Positions 4,187 to 19,183 of a stretch of 20,034 bases of DNA are shown piece by piece. The first letter of the stretch is position 1. Every line of letters begins with the position of its first letter. Made by a program: the position numbers and the translations under genes. The notes under the pieces were generated by a model that worked only from the letters and a program-made list of their open reading frames with translations, had not been told where the DNA came from and did not search any database. This stretch comes from a virus. Location: IMG/VR virus record IMGVR_UViG_3300025892_000212, positions 1-20,034 of that record; one strand, written 5' to 3'.

Positions 4187-4699
4187 TTATTCTTGATAAT
4201 AATCATCTTCTTCTTCATCATAGTAATCATCATAATCTTCTTCTTCATCTTCAAATTCAGATTCAAAATCAAACATTTCTTTATCTAATTTTGTGTATTC
4301 ATCTTCAGGAGTTGCTTCAACATGATCTATTACTTTTTCTAAAGCAAACTTTATTAATCTTTCATATCCATCTTCCGGGGCATCCGTTGCTTTATTAAAT
4401 GTACTTGCTAAGGTTGATTGTAAGTCAAATGGAATTTGATTTGAATTAACTAAAAATGAATGAGCAGGACCTGCTGTTTCAGCACCATATCCTTTGTAAA
4501 AATAATCTCCATCATTGTACCATCTATAAACTAATCTGTTTATAGCTCTCATTAATTCACCTTCAACTGTTTTTGCAGCACCTGATCCTGGGACTAATTT
4601 ATTAAATAATACGTTGTTTCTTTTTTCTAAAGTACCACCAACAAATTCTTTTAATAATTTACCCTCAGCTAAATATTTTGTTAAATCGAAATTATCCAT
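4187..4699 (-). CDS. Putative internal head protein with capsid-targeting N-terminus and acidic tail
   Basis: This 170-residue protein begins MDNFDLTKYLAEGKLLKE. The first 12 residues form a short amphipathic segment ending in YLAE/G, close in form to the capsid-targeting propeptide of T4 internal proteins, which T4 gp21 protease removes after Glu. The body (about 25-130) contains GELMRAINRLVYRWYNDGDY and is probably helical. The last 25 residues are almost all Asp, Glu and Tyr, a strongly acidic tail. It follows a 62-nt gap with a promoter-like element and is the last gene before the 3384-4148 unit. Alternative reading: an unrelated small structural or scaffold protein. Confidence 0.75.
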   Translation of the reverse strand: MDNFDLTKYLAEGKLLKEFVGGTLEKRNNVLFNKLVPGSGAAKTVEGELMRAINRLVYRWYNDGDYFYKGYGAETAGPAHSFLVNSNQIPFDLQSTLASTFNKATDAPEDGYERLIKFALEKVIDHVEATPEDEYTKLDKEMFDFESEFEDEEEDYDDYYDEEEDDYYQE

Positions 4700-5979: not shown

Positions 5980-7059
5980 TTAGAAAGCATAAGACCATCT
6001 TGGAAGACCATCTTTAAATGCTATTTTAATTTCTTTACCTAACTTATCTACTAAACTATCTGCTGATACTCTTTTATAATTTCCTGATATATCATTTAGA
6101 AAAAATATTTCTTCAAAACCTTCAAATTTTATATATAATTTGACAACTTCTTTAGCCATGTCTTGTTCAAATTTAAGCCAATTAAAATCACCGCCACTAA
6201 CATAAGATTTTAAGTTAATATTTGAAAAATCAATACCCTGATAGTTTTTCTTAAATGCTGATTCTACTACTGATATAAAGTCTTCTATAGCCTCAGGTTG
6301 TTCTTCTTTAATTTGATCGAATATAATTCCAATTCTATTAAAAGGTCTTTTACCTTTAACTCTTAATGAAATGTCATTAGTAAGTTTATCATTTATTCCT
6401 TTTTCAATATCAGTATAAACAGTATCCATAGTATTTACACTAAATTCTGCTTTTTGCCCCATAGGAACAGCTCCTTTATTTTTTACCTCAACTTCTTTTC
6501 CTGCTGCTTCAATATCTCCTCCACTTGTAGCATCTTGTACGTCTGAAAGCATAACAGCTAAAAGTATTTCTCCTTTTCCTGTAGAAATTCTACCAATTGA
6601 AGGTTCTAATTTTAGGATAAATTCAATTAATTCATCTGATAAGAAATTAAATTTTTCTTTTAAATTACCCCCATCACCTAAATAGGAATAAGCTTTCATA
6701 TTATCTAAATATTCAGCATATTTTGGTACATCTCCTGTAGATACCATTTTATTATAAATACTATCCGCTACTTTTGAAGGACCTTTACCTTTTGATGAAA
6801 TATAATCAATAATTGATTTTTTAAATTTAATTCCTGATACTGATGATAATATTCTAGATAATTGTTCAGGTGTAAATTCTTCATCCTGAAGGACTTTAAT
6901 AATTTCTTCTTTAGAAACAACCCCATCAGCTTCTTCTTCTTTAATAAGATTATTAACCATTTCAAATAATCTAGCTTTTTCTTCAGGATTATTTATATTA
7001 GGGTATCCTTTAGGAAATTTATATGATATTTTATTTAAATATTTTGTTATATTATCCAT
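5980..7059 (-). CDS. PD-(D/E)XK nuclease-like protein
   Basis: I start at the ATG at 7059 (359 residues, MDNITKYLNKISYKF), which shares ATGGATAA with the stop of the upstream gene. The longer frame from 7113 would add 18 residues overlapping that gene. Numbered from 7059, E164 (STGKGEILLAVML), D182 (GGDIEAAGKE), E191 and K193 (VEVKNKG) lie in the order and spacing of a restriction-endonuclease-fold active site (E...D...ExK), which binds metal and cuts DNA. The N-terminal half is helical and of unknown role. MDNITKYL resembles the capsid-targeting starts of neighbours (MDNFDLTKYL), but no clear E/G cleavage site follows. It could be a packaged or a cytoplasmic nuclease. Confidence 0.75.
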   Translation of the reverse strand: MDNITKYLNKISYKFPKGYPNINNPEEKARLFEMVNNLIKEEEADGVVSKEEIIKVLQDEEFTPEQLSRILSSVSGIKFKKSIIDYISSKGKGPSKVADSIYNKMVSTGDVPKYAEYLDNMKAYSYLGDGGNLKEKFNFLSDELIEFILKLEPSIGRISTGKGEILLAVMLSDVQDATSGGDIEAAGKEVEVKNKGAVPMGQKAEFSVNTMDTVYTDIEKGINDKLTNDISLRVKGKRPFNRIGIIFDQIKEEQPEAIEDFISVVESAFKKNYQGIDFSNINLKSYVSGGDFNWLKFEQDMAKEVVKLYIKFEGFEEIFFLNDISGNYKRVSADSLVDKLGKEIKIAFKDGLPRWSYAF

Positions 7060-7489
7060 TTTCTTTTCTTTCTTGCCAATCATAAGATACACTATCTTTG
7101 GTAATAGGACCACCTTTAGCCCAAGTTCTACAAGTTCTAGCTGAATGACATTTAAAATTGTGCATCCAACAATAACCTAATCTACCGCTATCATCTGATA
7201 CTTGACCAGGCATACATTCATCCATTCTTGGAGAAATATCAAAAGCAACACAATTACCACATAAAGATTTTTTTGCTGCTTCTAATGTTGTGTCCCAATA
7301 TTCAGCTAATTCTTTCCAATAATCTCCTGGTTCATCTACATTTAATGGACCATATTTAATGTAATCGGCTTTAATTGAAGCGTCTCGATTTTTAGTATTT
7401 AACTTAAGATTTTGAGTAGCAGCAGGACAAGCCATTGCTGCTTCAAATAGCTTACCTTCAGTTAAATATTTTTTTAAATCAAATTTCAT
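7052..7489 (-). CDS. Cys-rich protein with capsid-targeting-like N-terminus
   Basis: This 145-residue protein starts MKFDLKKYLTEGKLFEAAM. YLTE/G at 8-12 resembles a T4 prohead-protease site. The mature-looking part begins MACPAATQ (19-26). Cysteines are at 21, 77, 80, 92, 107, 114 and 120 (CGNC, DEC, YCW, FKC, RTC) with His 110 and 115, suggesting a metal or iron-sulfur site. I recall T4-like phage proteins with this Cys pattern that begin directly at MACP, so the first 18 residues look like an added leader. The function of the family is unknown to me. Stop and start overlaps with both neighbours (ATGGATAA downstream, 1 nt upstream) support a real cistron. Confidence 0.8.
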   Translation of the reverse strand: MKFDLKKYLTEGKLFEAAMACPAATQNLKLNTKNRDASIKADYIKYGPLNVDEPGDYWKELAEYWDTTLEAAKKSLCGNCVAFDISPRMDECMPGQVSDDSGRLGYCWMHNFKCHSARTCRTWAKGGPITKDSVSYDWQERKENG

Positions 7490-11438: not shown

Positions 11439-12758
11439 CTATCCTTTCATCTGGCCTTTACATACTTTAACAGCACGACCATTTAAATAAGCAGATGATT
11501 TTTCACCCGCTGCCATTCTCTTCTTTCTATATGCTTTACCTTTAGCACAAAGATCTTCATTTAAATTTTTTCCTAATTCAATAGTTTCTTTAATATCTTT
11601 AATAGCTTCTTTTAAACTACCTAATTCATCAATTGCTCTAGTAAGATCTCGTTTTGCTTCATCTTCACTAACACCTCTATATTTAGCTATACTTTTAATA
11701 GCACGCATAGCAATTCTTTTTTCTTCTTTAGAGGCACTTTCTTTCATAAAACCCTTAACTACTGGTCTTGGGTTAGCAACATCCATCATTTTTTGTAAGA
11801 AAAGAACTCTTTTATCAATAGCACCTTTCATTAATTCTAAAGTTTCAATATCAAATTCATCATTTACTGTAGCTAAAAACTCACTAGCTTCCATTCCTTC
11901 AGCTATTGCTTGATTATAAGTCATTTCTTTTCTACCTGATAATTTAGCAATTGCAGCATCAATACTATTTAATTTATTGCCATATTCATCAGCAATTGGC
12001 CCACCTTCTGGTTCGGCTTCTTGCTCCATATCGCGCATTAATTGAGCTCTTTCTTTTTTGAGGAAAGCTAATTTTTTAGCGTTTTTATCATTACCATAAG
12101 CAACTTTAACAGCATCGCCATATTCTTTACCAAAATCTGATTTAGATAATTCTCTTTCTGTTCTATCTTTAGCAGCTCTCATTTTTACAAGAATTGGATC
12201 ATTAATATCCATCTCATTAACTGATTTATATAATGAAAGTAATCTTTTAAGTTCATTTTGAACTAACATTTCAGTCTCATTATCGAGAGGCATACCGTTA
12301 GCTTCACCACTGTCTAAAATTTCTTCAGCATCCTTAATTTGTTTCATGATACCTGCTTTACTCATTCCCTCTTTAATTGGGAAATCGGCTACATCAAACT
12401 CAAATTTTATTTTCGGGTAATAATATCTTTCACCTGGGTCTTCTTCATAATAGTTAGAATCTGAAGTTACTTCAAATCCATTACTTTCAACCCATTTTAA
12501 AGCTTTATTCCAATCATCATCAGGTAATTCATATGATCTAAATGAAATAGATCCATATCCTTTATCTTTTAAGGGATCTGAATCTGGTCTATCACCACTA
12601 TACATCCCCATACTAACATAAGGACTATATTTTGCTAAGATTTTTTTTATATCAATAGTTAAATCTTTAGCTTTACTATCATATTCACCATACTCATCAA
12701 TTTTTCCTTCTGATAAATAACGGTTTCTATTCCATTTTGTGATGTTGAAATTATCCAT
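11439..12758 (-). CDS. Multidomain internal-head-like protein with capsid-targeting N-terminus (439 aa)
   Basis: The protein starts MDNFNITKWNRNRYLSEGK, with YLSE/G at 14-18 in the pattern of its neighbours. Further sites of the same type occur at PIKE130/GMSK, AIAE287/GMEA, FMKE340/S and NLNE401/D, mostly between predicted modules. Residues about 20-127 form an alpha/beta domain (SYELPDDDWNKALKWVESNG). Residues 131-190 are helical, 190-285 are charged helices, and 288-395 hold helical hairpins (FLQKMMDVANPRP). The last 38 residues are a basic Cys module (LCAKGKAYRKKRMAAGEKSS, then GRAVKVCKG). No enzyme motif is seen. The module plan suggests a processed internal protein or polyprotein. A TATAAATA ends only 7 nt before the ATG, so the message would be nearly leaderless if that promoter is used. 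Confidence 0.78.
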   Translation of the reverse strand: MDNFNITKWNRNRYLSEGKIDEYGEYDSKAKDLTIDIKKILAKYSPYVSMGMYSGDRPDSDPLKDKGYGSISFRSYELPDDDWNKALKWVESNGFEVTSDSNYYEEDPGERYYYPKIKFEFDVADFPIKEGMSKAGIMKQIKDAEEILDSGEANGMPLDNETEMLVQNELKRLLSLYKSVNEMDINDPILVKMRAAKDRTERELSKSDFGKEYGDAVKVAYGNDKNAKKLAFLKKERAQLMRDMEQEAEPEGGPIADEYGNKLNSIDAAIAKLSGRKEMTYNQAIAEGMEASEFLATVNDEFDIETLELMKGAIDKRVLFLQKMMDVANPRPVVKGFMKESASKEEKRIAMRAIKSIAKYRGVSEDEAKRDLTRAIDELGSLKEAIKDIKETIELGKNLNEDLCAKGKAYRKKRMAAGEKSSAYLNGRAVKVCKGQMKG

Positions 12759-13368: not shown

Positions 13369-13575
13369 CTATAATTTTTGTAATTCTAATATTATTGTAG
13401 ATATACCTTCTGTGGTGATTTTACCATCAGCATGTAATATTTTAATATCATTAATTAATTTATCTATATTTACCAATTTAGGAGTATCTCCTAAATATGG
13501 TTTTTTACTACTTTCACTTCTTACTCTAGGAGAACCACCTTTATAACCTCCTGCTAATGTGTTTAATTTACTCAT
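13369..13575 (-). CDS. Small protein of unknown function (68 aa)
   Basis: The N-terminal half is basic and Gly/Ser rich (MSKLNTLAGGYKGGSPRVRS). The C-terminal half looks helical (VNIDKLINDIKILHADGKIT, then TIILELQKL). I do not recognise it. Its ATG overlaps the stop of the 859-residue gene as ATGA (13572-13575) and its stop is 4 nt before the zinc-finger gene, so it is well placed as a cistron between two real genes. Confidence 0.68.
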   Translation of the reverse strand: MSKLNTLAGGYKGGSPRVRSESSKKPYLGDTPKLVNIDKLINDIKILHADGKITTEGISTIILELQKL

Positions 13576-16151
13576 AATCCTAATGCTTTTAATTGTTTAA
13601 TAGTATCATTAGCATTTTTATGTAAAATACCTACTCCACCAGCTTCTTTCCATTGTTCTATATTTGATTCTCTATCATCAATTAATATATGGTTAGGTTC
13701 AGCATAGTTTTTTTTATTATAAGCTTGAGCTAAATGAAGTTTAATACCTGGTAGATTATTTCTAACCCATAATCTTTTCCCTAATCTTGAAGTTTCTGAT
13801 CTTGAGGGGGAAGATAATAATTCTACATCATAGTTTTTAATATAATCCCAATATTGTTTTCCATCTTCCATCCAAGGCATTCCTACCCAAAACCCAACTT
13901 TACCTTCTCCATCAATTAATTTCCAAAATCCATCTTTGCCGAATTTTTTTTCATATTCTCTAGGAGGTATTCCTTTTGAATATTTTTCAAATGATCTGTC
14001 AAAATCAGTTAACACACCATCCATGTCTGAGTATATTTTATATTTCATAGGTTGTGAAGATACAATTTCTTCTTCGGGTAACAAAACTCCTTCGGCAATT
14101 TCTCTAGCAAATTGGTTTAATCCAAAAGGATCTTTACCTAATTTTTTATTAAAACCATGTTTATGTTTATAAGGTTTAGATTCATTTACTGGGGTATTAT
14201 TATGATTGCATTTATGACATATAAATAAATCATTACCTCCTTCTGCTATTTTCCAACTCCAACCACAATTATCACATTCGATTTTTTCCCCAACAATTTC
14301 TTCATTTAAACTATCAGTCCAATTTCTAAATGTCATTGTGCCTTTTAGATTTGCTTCTGCTTCAATGTTATTTAAATGGTCATCTTCTTGGGTATTTGTA
14401 GTTTGAATATTACCTAATCTTCCTTCTATGTTTTGTATGTGGTGAATCATTTCATGAGCGTAACTACGCGCTATATCTTTAGGATGCCTACCTTCCGTAT
14501 ATAATACTATGGTTTGAGTATTTGGATTATAATACGCTGTTTTACCAAAAAAATCACTTGCATTATTATTATCACCATTAATAAATTCTAATTTAGGTAA
14601 AGGAGATATATTCATTCCTTTATCTAACATATGTTGAGTTAGTTGGGCTAATTTTTCTATTAAATTAATATCTTTTGTGTATGAAGCATTTTCAGTAATT
14701 TGAGCTTTAGGTAGGTTTTTCATAGCCCAATTTAAATAAACTTGTTTAATTTTTTTAATTTCACCAGGTGTTAATTCTTCTAATCTTTCATCTAAAAAAT
14801 CATCAATAGCTTGGTTTAACGTTATTTTTTTTGTTTTGGATTTTTTGTATAAACCTTGAACAAAAGCAGGAATTTCATAGTCTAAAGTAAGATAATCAAA
14901 TAATTTTAAATCATCACTTCCCGCAGGATTAACACCTTTATTAAAATTAAATTGACCAATATGTTCTAACTCATGTCTTAAAGCATCTTTAATTTCAGCG
15001 TTTAAATCATTATAGGAGTCTGGAAATGAATCAGGTTGGTATGTTATTATTAGTTCTAAAGAATCTTCATCTGCTGCTGCATTTACTATAAAAGGAATAG
15101 GTCCTAACTCATCAAAGCTACTTGGAATAAATTTAAGCTCTAAATCATAATAAATATCTTCTAATTGACCCTCAAATTCTTCAATAAATTTATTACCTAA
15201 ATTGGGTTTAAATAAATTCATTATAAAACGGGATTGCATTAAAACTTCTTGATCATATCTGCCTTCTTGAAGTGCTATAACAGGAGTAGATGTTTTGAAA
15301 TCTTTCTTACGCATTACTGTTTTAGCATACATTTCAATATCATCATCAGTTACATTTATAGCGAATGGTATATTTATGTTATTATTAAAATCTTTAACAA
15401 CAGCATTAAAATCATCATCTATTTTAGATAAAGGTTTTCCATGTTTTTTATATAAACGTTTAAACATACCTATAAGTTCAGCTGTAGTTATTGGTTTTTT
15501 ATTTCGTTTATCATTTACTCTATCTAAAAAATGCCTTGTAAACTCAATATCAATTCCTAATTTATTAAATAATCCATCAGCATATTTTTCAATTGAATCT
15601 AATTGTGGTTTAGTTATTTCTTCTTTAATTACAGGTCTTAAAATATTAAATACTTCTTCTTTTTCTTTATTATTTAATTCATCTGGAAGAAATGGGGATA
15701 GTTTAGATGAAGATATTTTAGATGCTTTTCTGGCATTAGTACCACTCATGCCTTTATCAGGAGTTGTTTGTACTTTTACTTCCATATTAGAATAAGCTTG
15801 TTCTATATTTTTTGTTCTATTAGTGATATCATCTAAATCATCTTGTCTACCCTCTCTACCACCAATAATAAAATATACTTTATCATCTGGGTTATTTTTA
15901 CCTAAACGTATAATATCTCCAATTGGTAGTTTAGATGGTTCTATTTTTACTTTCATTGGAAGATATTTTTTAAATATATCCCAAATTAAAAGTGATTCAG
16001 TTTGACTAATACCATCACGTTCTTTACCCCCAACATAAATAATAAACTCATCTATTTCAGGGTGTGCATCTAAAGCTTTTTTAACTACTTCTAAATGGCC
16101 TTTTGTTGGTGGTTTAAACCCACCCCCATATGCTGCAATTGTTTTACCCAT
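13572..16151 (-). CDS. Giant multidomain protein: nucleotidyltransferase, two zincins, zinc ribbon and HAD phosphatase; candidate polyprotein
   Basis: The 859 residues contain at least six modules. Residues 1-175 are a nucleotidyltransferase: AAYGGGFKPPTKGHL holds the HxGH-like TKGH, and GMSGTNARK the second signature. Residues 180-295 are unassigned (FTRHFLDRVNDKRN). Residues 300-480 are a zincin with HELEH (393-397) and possible third ligand E426. Residues 490-615 are a second zincin with HEMIH (566-570) and E597 or E599. Cys 626, 629, 645 and 648 form a zinc ribbon. Residues 703-859 are a HAD phosphatase (D709-M-D711-G-V-L-T-D; IDDRES near 824-829), deoxyribonucleotidase-like. At the module borders lie IKEE177-178, ALQE296/G, QITE487/N, LNEE617-618 and EIAE687/G, all like T4 prohead-protease sites. 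The ATG shares ATGGGTAA with the kinase stop. The joint function is unknown. Confidence 0.82.
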   Translation of the reverse strand: MGKTIAAYGGGFKPPTKGHLEVVKKALDAHPEIDEFIIYVGGKERDGISQTESLLIWDIFKKYLPMKVKIEPSKLPIGDIIRLGKNNPDDKVYFIIGGREGRQDDLDDITNRTKNIEQAYSNMEVKVQTTPDKGMSGTNARKASKISSSKLSPFLPDELNNKEKEEVFNILRPVIKEEITKPQLDSIEKYADGLFNKLGIDIEFTRHFLDRVNDKRNKKPITTAELIGMFKRLYKKHGKPLSKIDDDFNAVVKDFNNNINIPFAINVTDDDIEMYAKTVMRKKDFKTSTPVIALQEGRYDQEVLMQSRFIMNLFKPNLGNKFIEEFEGQLEDIYYDLELKFIPSSFDELGPIPFIVNAAADEDSLELIITYQPDSFPDSYNDLNAEIKDALRHELEHIGQFNFNKGVNPAGSDDLKLFDYLTLDYEIPAFVQGLYKKSKTKKITLNQAIDDFLDERLEELTPGEIKKIKQVYLNWAMKNLPKAQITENASYTKDINLIEKLAQLTQHMLDKGMNISPLPKLEFINGDNNNASDFFGKTAYYNPNTQTIVLYTEGRHPKDIARSYAHEMIHHIQNIEGRLGNIQTTNTQEDDHLNNIEAEANLKGTMTFRNWTDSLNEEIVGEKIECDNCGWSWKIAEGGNDLFICHKCNHNNTPVNESKPYKHKHGFNKKLGKDPFGLNQFAREIAEGVLLPEEEIVSSQPMKYKIYSDMDGVLTDFDRSFEKYSKGIPPREYEKKFGKDGFWKLIDGEGKVGFWVGMPWMEDGKQYWDYIKNYDVELLSSPSRSETSRLGKRLWVRNNLPGIKLHLAQAYNKKNYAEPNHILIDDRESNIEQWKEAGGVGILHKNANDTIKQLKALGL

Positions 16152-16947
16152 TAATAAATGCTTTTAATTTTGATTGGGCTTCTTCAGCTGATACAGAATT
16201 GTCAATAACATTTTTAACACCATCATCTGCTAATAATGCTTTAATTTGGGCATTAACTTCAGCTTTTCTTTTATCAGATCTGGCTTGTGCTTTAGCATCT
16301 TTTGGTTTAGTACCTTGAGGTTTAAAAGGTGTTAAATATTTATCAACTATATCTTCTAAATTATCTAATTTTTCATCTTTTAGTAAATTAGATACAGATA
16401 CAAAATTACTACCAAATGCATTTTTATATATATCATAATTTTGAGTTACATCATTCCATGTACGCATTACAATTGCAGGTGCTAAACTTCTATCTTCACC
16501 CCCTGATTTATCAAATCTATCTTGGTTTTGTTTTAATGAGCGTTCTAAGTCTGTGTAAACATAAAGCATAAATACTTCATACCCTGCATTTTCTAATTCA
16601 TCTTTCAATTTAAGAGTAGCACGGCTAGATGCTCCTGTTCCGTCTAATATAAATGATTCTCTGTTAGCAATTGCTTTAGGTAAATCTTCATCCTTTAATT
16701 TTGAAGCTGCTTGTCTCATTAATTTAGAAGCTTCACTTCTTTCTTGAGGGGTTGCATTTTTTAAATCTAAGCTAACTCCTGCTTTTTTTAATAAAGGTAC
16801 AAAATCTAAATCTAAATTATAAGTAGTTAAACCTGATAGATCTAAACCACGCAATATATAACCTTTACCGGCTCCTGGGGCACCTGCTAATATAATTGCC
16901 TTTGGTTTAGCAACCGCTTCTTTTAATAATTGAACTAATGAAATCAT
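16144..16947 (-). CDS. P-loop kinase (zeta-toxin/AAA_33-like) with capsid-targeting-like N-terminus
   Basis: The 267-residue protein has Walker A AGAPGAGKGY (21-30), a strand ending in LDGTG (101-105) and a lid-like region with LYVYTDLERSLKQNQDR (128-144). This is the layout of small P-loop kinases of the zeta-toxin/polynucleotide-kinase group, which phosphorylate a nucleotide, sugar or nucleic-acid end. The substrate cannot be read from the sequence. The first ten residues (MISLVQLLKE/A) resemble the T4-type capsid-targeting leader. The C-terminal 55 residues (KPKDAKAQARSDKRKAEVNA and on) are a charged helical extension absent from typical kinases. A late-promoter-like element precedes it, and it overlaps the 859-residue gene by 8 nt. 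Confidence 0.78.
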   Translation of the reverse strand: MISLVQLLKEAVAKPKAIILAGAPGAGKGYILRGLDLSGLTTYNLDLDFVPLLKKAGVSLDLKNATPQERSEASKLMRQAASKLKDEDLPKAIANRESFILDGTGASSRATLKLKDELENAGYEVFMLYVYTDLERSLKQNQDRFDKSGGEDRSLAPAIVMRTWNDVTQNYDIYKNAFGSNFVSVSNLLKDEKLDNLEDIVDKYLTPFKPQGTKPKDAKAQARSDKRKAEVNAQIKALLADDGVKNVIDNSVSAEEAQSKLKAFING

Positions 16948-18733: not shown

Positions 18734-19183
18734 TTAATCAAAGTCTTTACTATAAAATTTACCCAAAATGTTATCATTCCAATAATCTTCAGGATTTTCT
18801 AGTACTTGATATACAAATAAATATTTACACTCATAATATGTTAATAATTTTTTTGAATTAGTAACTATAAGTATTTGCTTATCCCAATTTTCTTCTTTTT
18901 CATCTTTAATTAATTCTAACATATTTTTATTTGAACCCCAATAAGTTTTCCAATCAGATTCTTTAATAGCTAGTTTGTAAGATGGTCTTCTACCAACAAC
19001 ACCTTCATATTGTAGTAAATCTTTTTTACCTAACTTAACCTTTCTAGTAAAATATAGAATTTTTTTACCTATATAAGATTTACCTGTTGGTAAATGGGTT
19101 ATCTTGTAAACAAACCCATAAGAATCATCTGGAAAATCACTTATTTCTGTAATTTCCTGGTTTTGGTATATCCAATTTATCAT
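18734..19183 (-). CDS. GIY-YIG endonuclease-like protein
   Basis: The 149-residue protein has the GIY-YIG core: GFVYKIT (23-29) and SYIGKK (36-41), then YWGSNKNML (81-89) and a candidate catalytic Glu at 118 (YYECKY). Enzymes of this fold cleave DNA; T4-like phages carry them as homing endonucleases (Seg type) or free-standing nucleases. The N-terminal MINWIYQNQEITEISDFPDD is a conserved-looking lead-in I recall from T4-like members. No intron or interrupted gene is visible next to it, so homing activity cannot be claimed. It overlaps the structural gene by 4 nt (ATGA) and is followed by a 44-nt gap before the primase. Confidence 0.8.
   Translation of the reverse strand: MINWIYQNQEITEISDFPDDSYGFVYKITHLPTGKSYIGKKILYFTRKVKLGKKDLLQYEGVVGRRPSYKLAIKESDWKTYWGSNKNMLELIKDEKEENWDKQILIVTNSKKLLTYYECKYLFVYQVLENPEDYWNDNILGKFYSKDFD

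Follow-up and report, generated by a model that had tools for sequence, protein, structure and literature searches.

Does a phage gene that strings several unrelated domains into a single chain specify one multifunctional protein, or the precursor of separate proteins destined for the head? The question is raised by an open reading frame of 859 residues in a virus fragment of 20,034 bases (the window, that is the whole stretch of DNA analysed), for which DNA megablast found no match among phages. The frame is genuine; the original prediction had its coordinates right, and the coding strand is the minus one (Table 1). Polyproteins that a viral protease cuts are usually found in eukaryotic viruses, and the prohead protease of tailed phages is known for trimming leaders and destroying the scaffold. 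It is probable, in our judgement, that this gene, from a T4-like phage, encodes the common precursor of several internal-head proteins, which the prohead protease would cut at the joints between modules.

Table 1. Features of the window discussed in the text; a slash marks a joint or the end of a leader.
Feature	Coordinates	Strand	Remarks
Whole ORF, 859-residue modular precursor (putative)	13572..16151	-	863-codon open frame
Module 1, residues 1-177, NMN/nicotinate-nucleotide adenylyltransferase-like	15621..16151	-	GGGFKPPTKGH; Foldseek, pLDDT about 90
Joint 1, VIKE177/EIT	15621..15623	-	34 HSP breakpoints around residue 179
Module 2 (M05), residues 178-296	15264..15620	-	length 119 aa, constant across most relatives; occurs alone in other phages
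Joint 2, ALQE296/GRYD	15264..15266	-	close relative G001/L007 lacks module 3 exactly from this GAA codon
Module 3 (M03), residues 297-487, zincin-like	14691..15263	-	RHELEH; start nearly always G[RK]YD
Joint 3, QITE487/NASY	14691..14693	-	44 breakpoints around 483
Module 4 (M00), residues 488-617, zincin-like	14301..14690	-	HEMIHH; nearly all relatives have one
Joint 4, SLNE617/EIVG	14301..14303	-	20 breakpoints around 616
Module 5 (M04), residues 618-657, zinc ribbon	14181..14300	-	mobile among relatives; ends VNE657/S
Leader-like segment, residues 658-687	14091..14180	-	KDPFGLNQFAREIAE/G, joint 5 at its end; pattern as in N-terminal leaders, e.g. MDNFDLTKYLAE/G
Module 6 (M02), residues 688-859, HAD, 5'(3')-deoxyribonucleotidase-like	13575..14090	-	phrog_2643
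Neighbour, zeta-toxin-like kinase	16144..16947	-	leader MISLVQLLKE/A; Pfam Zeta_toxin E 6.4e-19
Neighbour with leader	4187..4699	-	MDNFDLTKYLAE/G
Neighbour with leader	7052..7489	-	MKFDLKKYLTE/G
Neighbour with leader	11439..12758	-	MDNFNITKWNRNRYLSE/G

Modules of the chain and of its relatives

Module 1 is a predicted NMN/NaMN adenylyltransferase by fold, of the NMNAT/PPAT-like type (HIGH-superfamily nucleotidyltransferases), its model matching NadD and CoaD in the PDB by Foldseek (E 2.5e-6, TM on the target 0.6-0.8). At the other end of the chain, residues 697-859 form a HAD domain of the NT5C type, recognised by its family profile with E 2.6e-25. Modules 3 and 4 carry HExxH, which is invariant in both together with a downstream Glu, and resemble known zincins weakly. 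Module 3 modelled alone is predicted with pLDDT 87, the final residues, at the joint, being disordered; the model has no significant match in the PDB, and the best match among viral models is an uncharacterised phage protein. Module 4 scores below the cut-offs of several zincin families, among which MPTase-PolyVal (PF18818; 13.6 bits, cut-off 27.5), with sub-cut-off matches in 17 of 29 members of the module (best E 0.0056), and no module of the window's protein rises above the PF18818 cut-off. The list of modules given in the original prediction is sustained for the NMNAT-like domain, the zinc ribbon and the HAD domain, and holds for the two HExxH modules as a weak likeness to zincins; the module at residues 178-296 and a sixth joint, VNE657/S after the zinc ribbon, had been missed.

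Module 2 has a conserved core (HF..R and KT[VI]MRK), and is present in hundreds of viral contigs. Its assignment as a RegB-like ribonuclease was rejected: 3 of 15 members match REGB_T4 weakly (E 0.0018), but hhalign against T4 RegB returned a probability of 0.9%.

The full-length AlphaFold model, built from an alignment of 32 rows, has a mean pLDDT of 61 and is poor in the middle, and the borders of the modules therefore rest more on homology breakpoints than on structure. All five sites named beforehand lie in this model in low-confidence coil between domains. A fragment alignment of 109 rows was dropped, many rows being misplaced.

Comparisons were made among 57 proteins, including the window's and that of the cultured Flavobacterium phage vB_FspM_immuto; the relatives are mostly uncultured contigs, redundant despite filtering. 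As many as 52 architectures occur among the 57 proteins, unrelated enzymatic domains being shuffled within one phage protein, and module lengths from joint to joint are nearly constant (119, 130, 40, 85 aa). The original prediction is upheld for the most part. Its proposal that single-domain proteins have fused is strongly supported by the comparison, the modules being joined and shuffled at LxE. Since the segmentation into modules makes use of the motif, it is circular as evidence for the motif; the tests based on breakpoints, whole-module indels and C-terminal edges are not.

Position of the L-x-E motif at the joints

The five protease-like sites that had been placed at domain borders (IKE177/E, LQE296/G, ITE487/N, LNE617/E and IAE687/G) all exist. 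The number of [LI]xE sites in the protein, 12, equals what composition predicts (11.6); the count was therefore rejected as evidence, and it is the position that is informative. In an all-versus-all comparison of the 57 proteins, a breakpoint was scored wherever a local alignment stopped in the interior of both partners, with no reference to the motif. The breakpoints of the window's protein form clusters at residues 179, 293, 483, 616 and 690, each no more than 4 residues from a named site, a proximity matched by random positions in 13 of 400,000 draws (about 3e-5). In all proteins, 48-50% of the breakpoint clusters fall within 6 residues of [LI]xE (15% expected), and [LI]NE is found at 21-27% of them (4% expected); no enrichment is seen for [LI]xK and [LI]xD, taken as controls, and next to none for E[LIVMF]x. 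No p-value is given for this enrichment because breakpoints are mutually non-independent. It counts against the precursor reading that the motif is missing, in the interval tested, from about 20% of internal joints. The consensus at the joints, L-N-E/N/G/E/D, differs from that of [LI]xE elsewhere in the same proteins. LxE is also found inside modules, where folding alone would shield it, a second point against that reading.

Gain and loss of modules points to the same positions. The close relative G001 (164 kb, the IMG/VR record behind L007) lacks module 3, and its DNA runs from the Glu codon of joint 2 directly into module 4, reading CTT AAT GAA/AAC GCT TCA TAT against CTT CAA GAA/GGC AGA ... 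ATT ACT GAA/AAT GCT TCA TAC in the window. Clean indels of whole modules have [LI]xE within 8 residues at 124 of 176 collapsed sites, 32 being expected.

The edges of the modules provide the control. For modules 2, 4 and 3 pooled, [LIV]xE is present at the C-terminal edge in 225/278 cases when a module follows, and in 8/109 when the protein ends, terminal cases having slightly fewer residues able to hold the motif. The difference is seen in module 2 (57/70 followed, 2/35 terminal; p = 0.006 at 80% non-redundancy), in module 4 (99/125 and 4/35; p = 2e-6) and in module 3 (69/83 and 2/39; p = 2e-9, both at the same non-redundancy). The chance rate for the edge, about 15-25% from the breakpoint analysis, is far below the internal rate, and above the terminal one. 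As an example, a followed module ends FRNWTDSLNE/A, a terminal one FRNWEDSIKNV-stop. The C-terminal LxE is hence tied to the presence of a following module, and belongs to the joint rather than to the fold. At the N-terminal edge of module 3 (70% non-redundant) the motif directly precedes the module in 12/12 solo and 22/24 fused cases, nearly all sites reading xE/G[RK]YD, with unrelated residues upstream.

Solo modules, leaders and the candidate protease

The original prediction had raised the question whether each module occurs alone behind a leader. The modules do occur alone in other phages, most often behind leaders of 7-20 residues that end in LxE and resemble those of T4 internal proteins. 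Such leaders are MISMKALITE/GRYD, MIKLRNILSE/GKYD and MENLITE/GRYD for module 3, MIRFNQYITE/Q, MKTFKQFSE/DIS and MRSFKEYILE/D for module 2, and MIKLSSLLSE/I for module 4; other solo modules are M06 in L051 (MIKLIDILFE/GDPK...) and M28 in L041. In T4, IPII and IPIII begin MKTYQEFIAE/A, and IPI MKTFKEF..ITE/A. Some solo module 2 genes (e.g. L214, L225, L250) have no such leader. HAD is a gene of its own in many relatives; nearly all such split genes begin with a short leader, usually one that ends in [LI]xE (e.g. MIKLKKIYNAVIE/G, MYKLTDLYKQIKE/A). In L047 (6829-6851) and L050 (6893-6915) it is split off by a stop exactly at the joint (LPPFE-stop), with a fresh start codon, ATG, about 20 bases downstream and no leader; a leader is thus not required by every module. 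Phage immuto has a smaller version of the chain, with HAD and module 2 as separate leader-first genes.

It had also been proposed that each site in the window's protein is surrounded by a leader-like segment. This holds for one of the five, the segment before HAD (KDPFGLNQFAREIAEG), which resembles the leaders of neighbouring genes (MDNFDLTKYLAEG) and recurs in about 30 relatives. At the other joints a bare L-x-E, three residues long, is all that is left, and what stands in front of it is part of the module before. Whether the chain as a whole is addressed to the prohead is a further point that counts against the precursor reading: T4 targeting sequences are N-terminal, and the window's protein begins directly with NMNAT (first residues MGKTIAAYGGGFKPP), a leader of 10-20 residues ending in [LI]xE being absent, and the open frame offers no upstream start from which one could be read. 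Among NMNAT-first relatives, about half have a 15-residue leader, MNQLTKFLVDGILNE/G, before NMNAT. The chain may enter the prohead by way of the internal leader-like segment, or of another signal.

The 859-residue frame overlaps the end of the zeta-toxin-like gene, directly upstream, which has a T4-like leader and is a candidate packaged kinase. In G001 the gene lies in the late cluster, with tail genes on one side and head genes on the other (terminase, portal, gp21-type protease, scaffold, major capsid protein). Leader motifs at the N-terminus are concentrated in the late cluster, with 17/34 against 25/156 (p 6e-5), and 17/37 against 27/169 (p 2e-4). Another gene of the window (18734-19183, minus strand) encodes a SegE-type GIY-YIG endonuclease (Pfam E 3.4e-26); it is called 'NAD synthetase' in the matching PHROG and in the immuto annotation, probably a propagated misannotation.

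Peptidase_S77, the family of the T4 prohead protease gp21, was identified in 9/9 related records, G001 included, and, in a second set of 16 records, in 8/8 of at least 100 kb, whereas 5/8 shorter fragments lack it. The 20-kb fragment itself carries no Peptidase_S77, and a gp21 of the window's phage is presumed from its relatives. The catalytic residues His85 and Ser140 of T4 gp21 are conserved in the gp21-type protease of the relatives, and in the same genomes the propeptide of the major capsid protein ends in VxE, at the place of T4 LTE/A.

Proposed processing in the prohead and its alternatives

In the model we favour, the modules would be made as one chain from the late gene cluster, the chain would enter the prohead core, and the gp21-type serine protease would separate the modules there, cutting after the Glu of L/I-x-E at every joint. 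The released NMNAT, HAD nucleotidase, two zincin-like domains, zinc ribbon and module 2 would exit together with the DNA when the next host is infected. In the course of evolution, modules are gained, lost and reordered at the joints.

Alternatively, the chain may be a permanently fused polyvalent protein, active uncut, the LxE joints being remnants of leaders of once-separate genes, or convenient flexible linkers. Multi-domain phage proteins packaged unprocessed are known, such as the N4 virion RNAP (PMC5512222), and NMNAT is first and HAD last in most relatives, so that the arrangement in one chain may matter. Yet the bodies of the leaders are gone at most joints, and exactly L-x-E has been kept beside unrelated upstream residues. 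Remnants do not account either for C-terminal edges that carry the motif only with a following module, where no leader ever existed, and the many relatives with a split-off HAD indicate that physical fusion is unnecessary. A fusion that works uncut is in our view unlikely. The enzyme may, instead, be one or both of the zincin-like modules, cutting their own chain, perhaps after injection into the host. Self-release by MPTase domains has been proposed for polyvalent proteins (PMC5512222), and module 4, with its sub-cut-off likeness to MPTase-PolyVal, is found in nearly every relative. Solo modules, however, keep LxE leaders without any zincin in the same ORF, and the motif fits both gp21-type proteases and the major capsid propeptide of the same genomes. 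Zincins with a strict Glu at P1 would be unusual, and we deem self-cutting very unlikely. That the joints are sites of recombination at the DNA level, LNE being the by-product of a conserved short DNA sequence, is extremely improbable. At LNE joints codon use is slightly more uniform than in the background (TTA 84% against 70%, AAT 91% against 79%), but 93 joints use 12 different codon triplets, near background bias, the motif is kept at amino-acid level in the leaders of solo proteins, and it is lost from terminal modules.

Several known systems come close to the chain, each resembling it in part. T4 IPI, IPII, IPIII and Alt, whose capsid targeting sequences are removed by gp21, share with the related proteins described here the short N-terminal L/I-x-E leader on packaged proteins and the gp21-type protease, and the leaders of the T4 internal proteins are very similar to those of solo modules (PMC9026906, PMC5694885). 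T4 internal proteins are made singly, whereas several modules are here in one chain. None of them is known as a string of several products with a site between each product and the next. In the polyvalent proteins that phages and conjugative elements encode, 2 to 15 shuffled enzymatic domains make up one chain, zincins included; such chains are believed to be packaged and then split into functional parts (PMC5512222). A shuffled multi-enzyme chain with zincin or zincin-like domains is common to them and to the window's protein; in polyvalent proteins release is ascribed to an embedded MPTase, whereas here a site of the prohead-protease type lies at nearly every joint, and modules alternate with leader-bearing solo genes. 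By analogy, the chain would work like a set of T4 internal proteins fused end to end; it would also be comparable to a polyvalent protein whose release has passed from an embedded peptidase to the prohead protease. Having no N-terminal targeting sequence, and no MPTase-PolyVal domain above cut-off, it is filed as a member of neither family. In the giant phages phiKZ, 201phi2-1 and SPN3US a gp21 homologue cuts many inner-body and ejection proteins after a short Glu-ending motif, at several sites in the case of some (PMC5694885, PMC9026906, PMC10052503), but the cuts described remove and break up propeptides, whereas folded modules flank each site here. PolA of Aquificae viruses is a phage protein called a polyprotein, with parts fused or split across relatives (PMC7689252); it is a replication enzyme, with no link to the capsid and no repeated cut-site joints described.

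On balance, we lean slightly towards a broader reading, according to which T4-like aquatic phages include a widespread class with true virion polyproteins: enzyme chains of shuffled order, with a prohead-protease site at each joint, would be cut in the prohead, and the resulting mixture, specific to each phage, would be ejected into the host. The mixture would comprise NMNAT, nucleotidase and zincins, with superoxide dismutase and a plastocyanin-like protein added in some relatives. If so, a chain of interchangeable enzymes with a cut site per joint would be a new way of loading the phage head, and the mosaicism of such proteins would be explained, since a module needs just a joint. Packaged proteins of uncultured phages would moreover become predictable from sequence, any domain starting right after an L-x-E in the late cluster being a candidate virion protein. 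A literature search found no virion proteomics of phage immuto, a cultured phage in which the precursor reading is directly testable.

A few relatives deserve mention for the content of their chains. The chain of L047 (3071-6829, plus strand) includes a module that is a Fe/Mn superoxide dismutase (Pfam E 4.5e-29) and another of the plastocyanin/azurin type (E 6.8e-14); L050, near-identical to L047, lacks the dismutase. In other phage contigs (L226, L230 and L219), a different nucleotidyltransferase (FGRFNPPT) resides behind leaders such as MRSFRELTE/A and is followed by module 2 at ILVEE/ITK, apparently a parallel chain.
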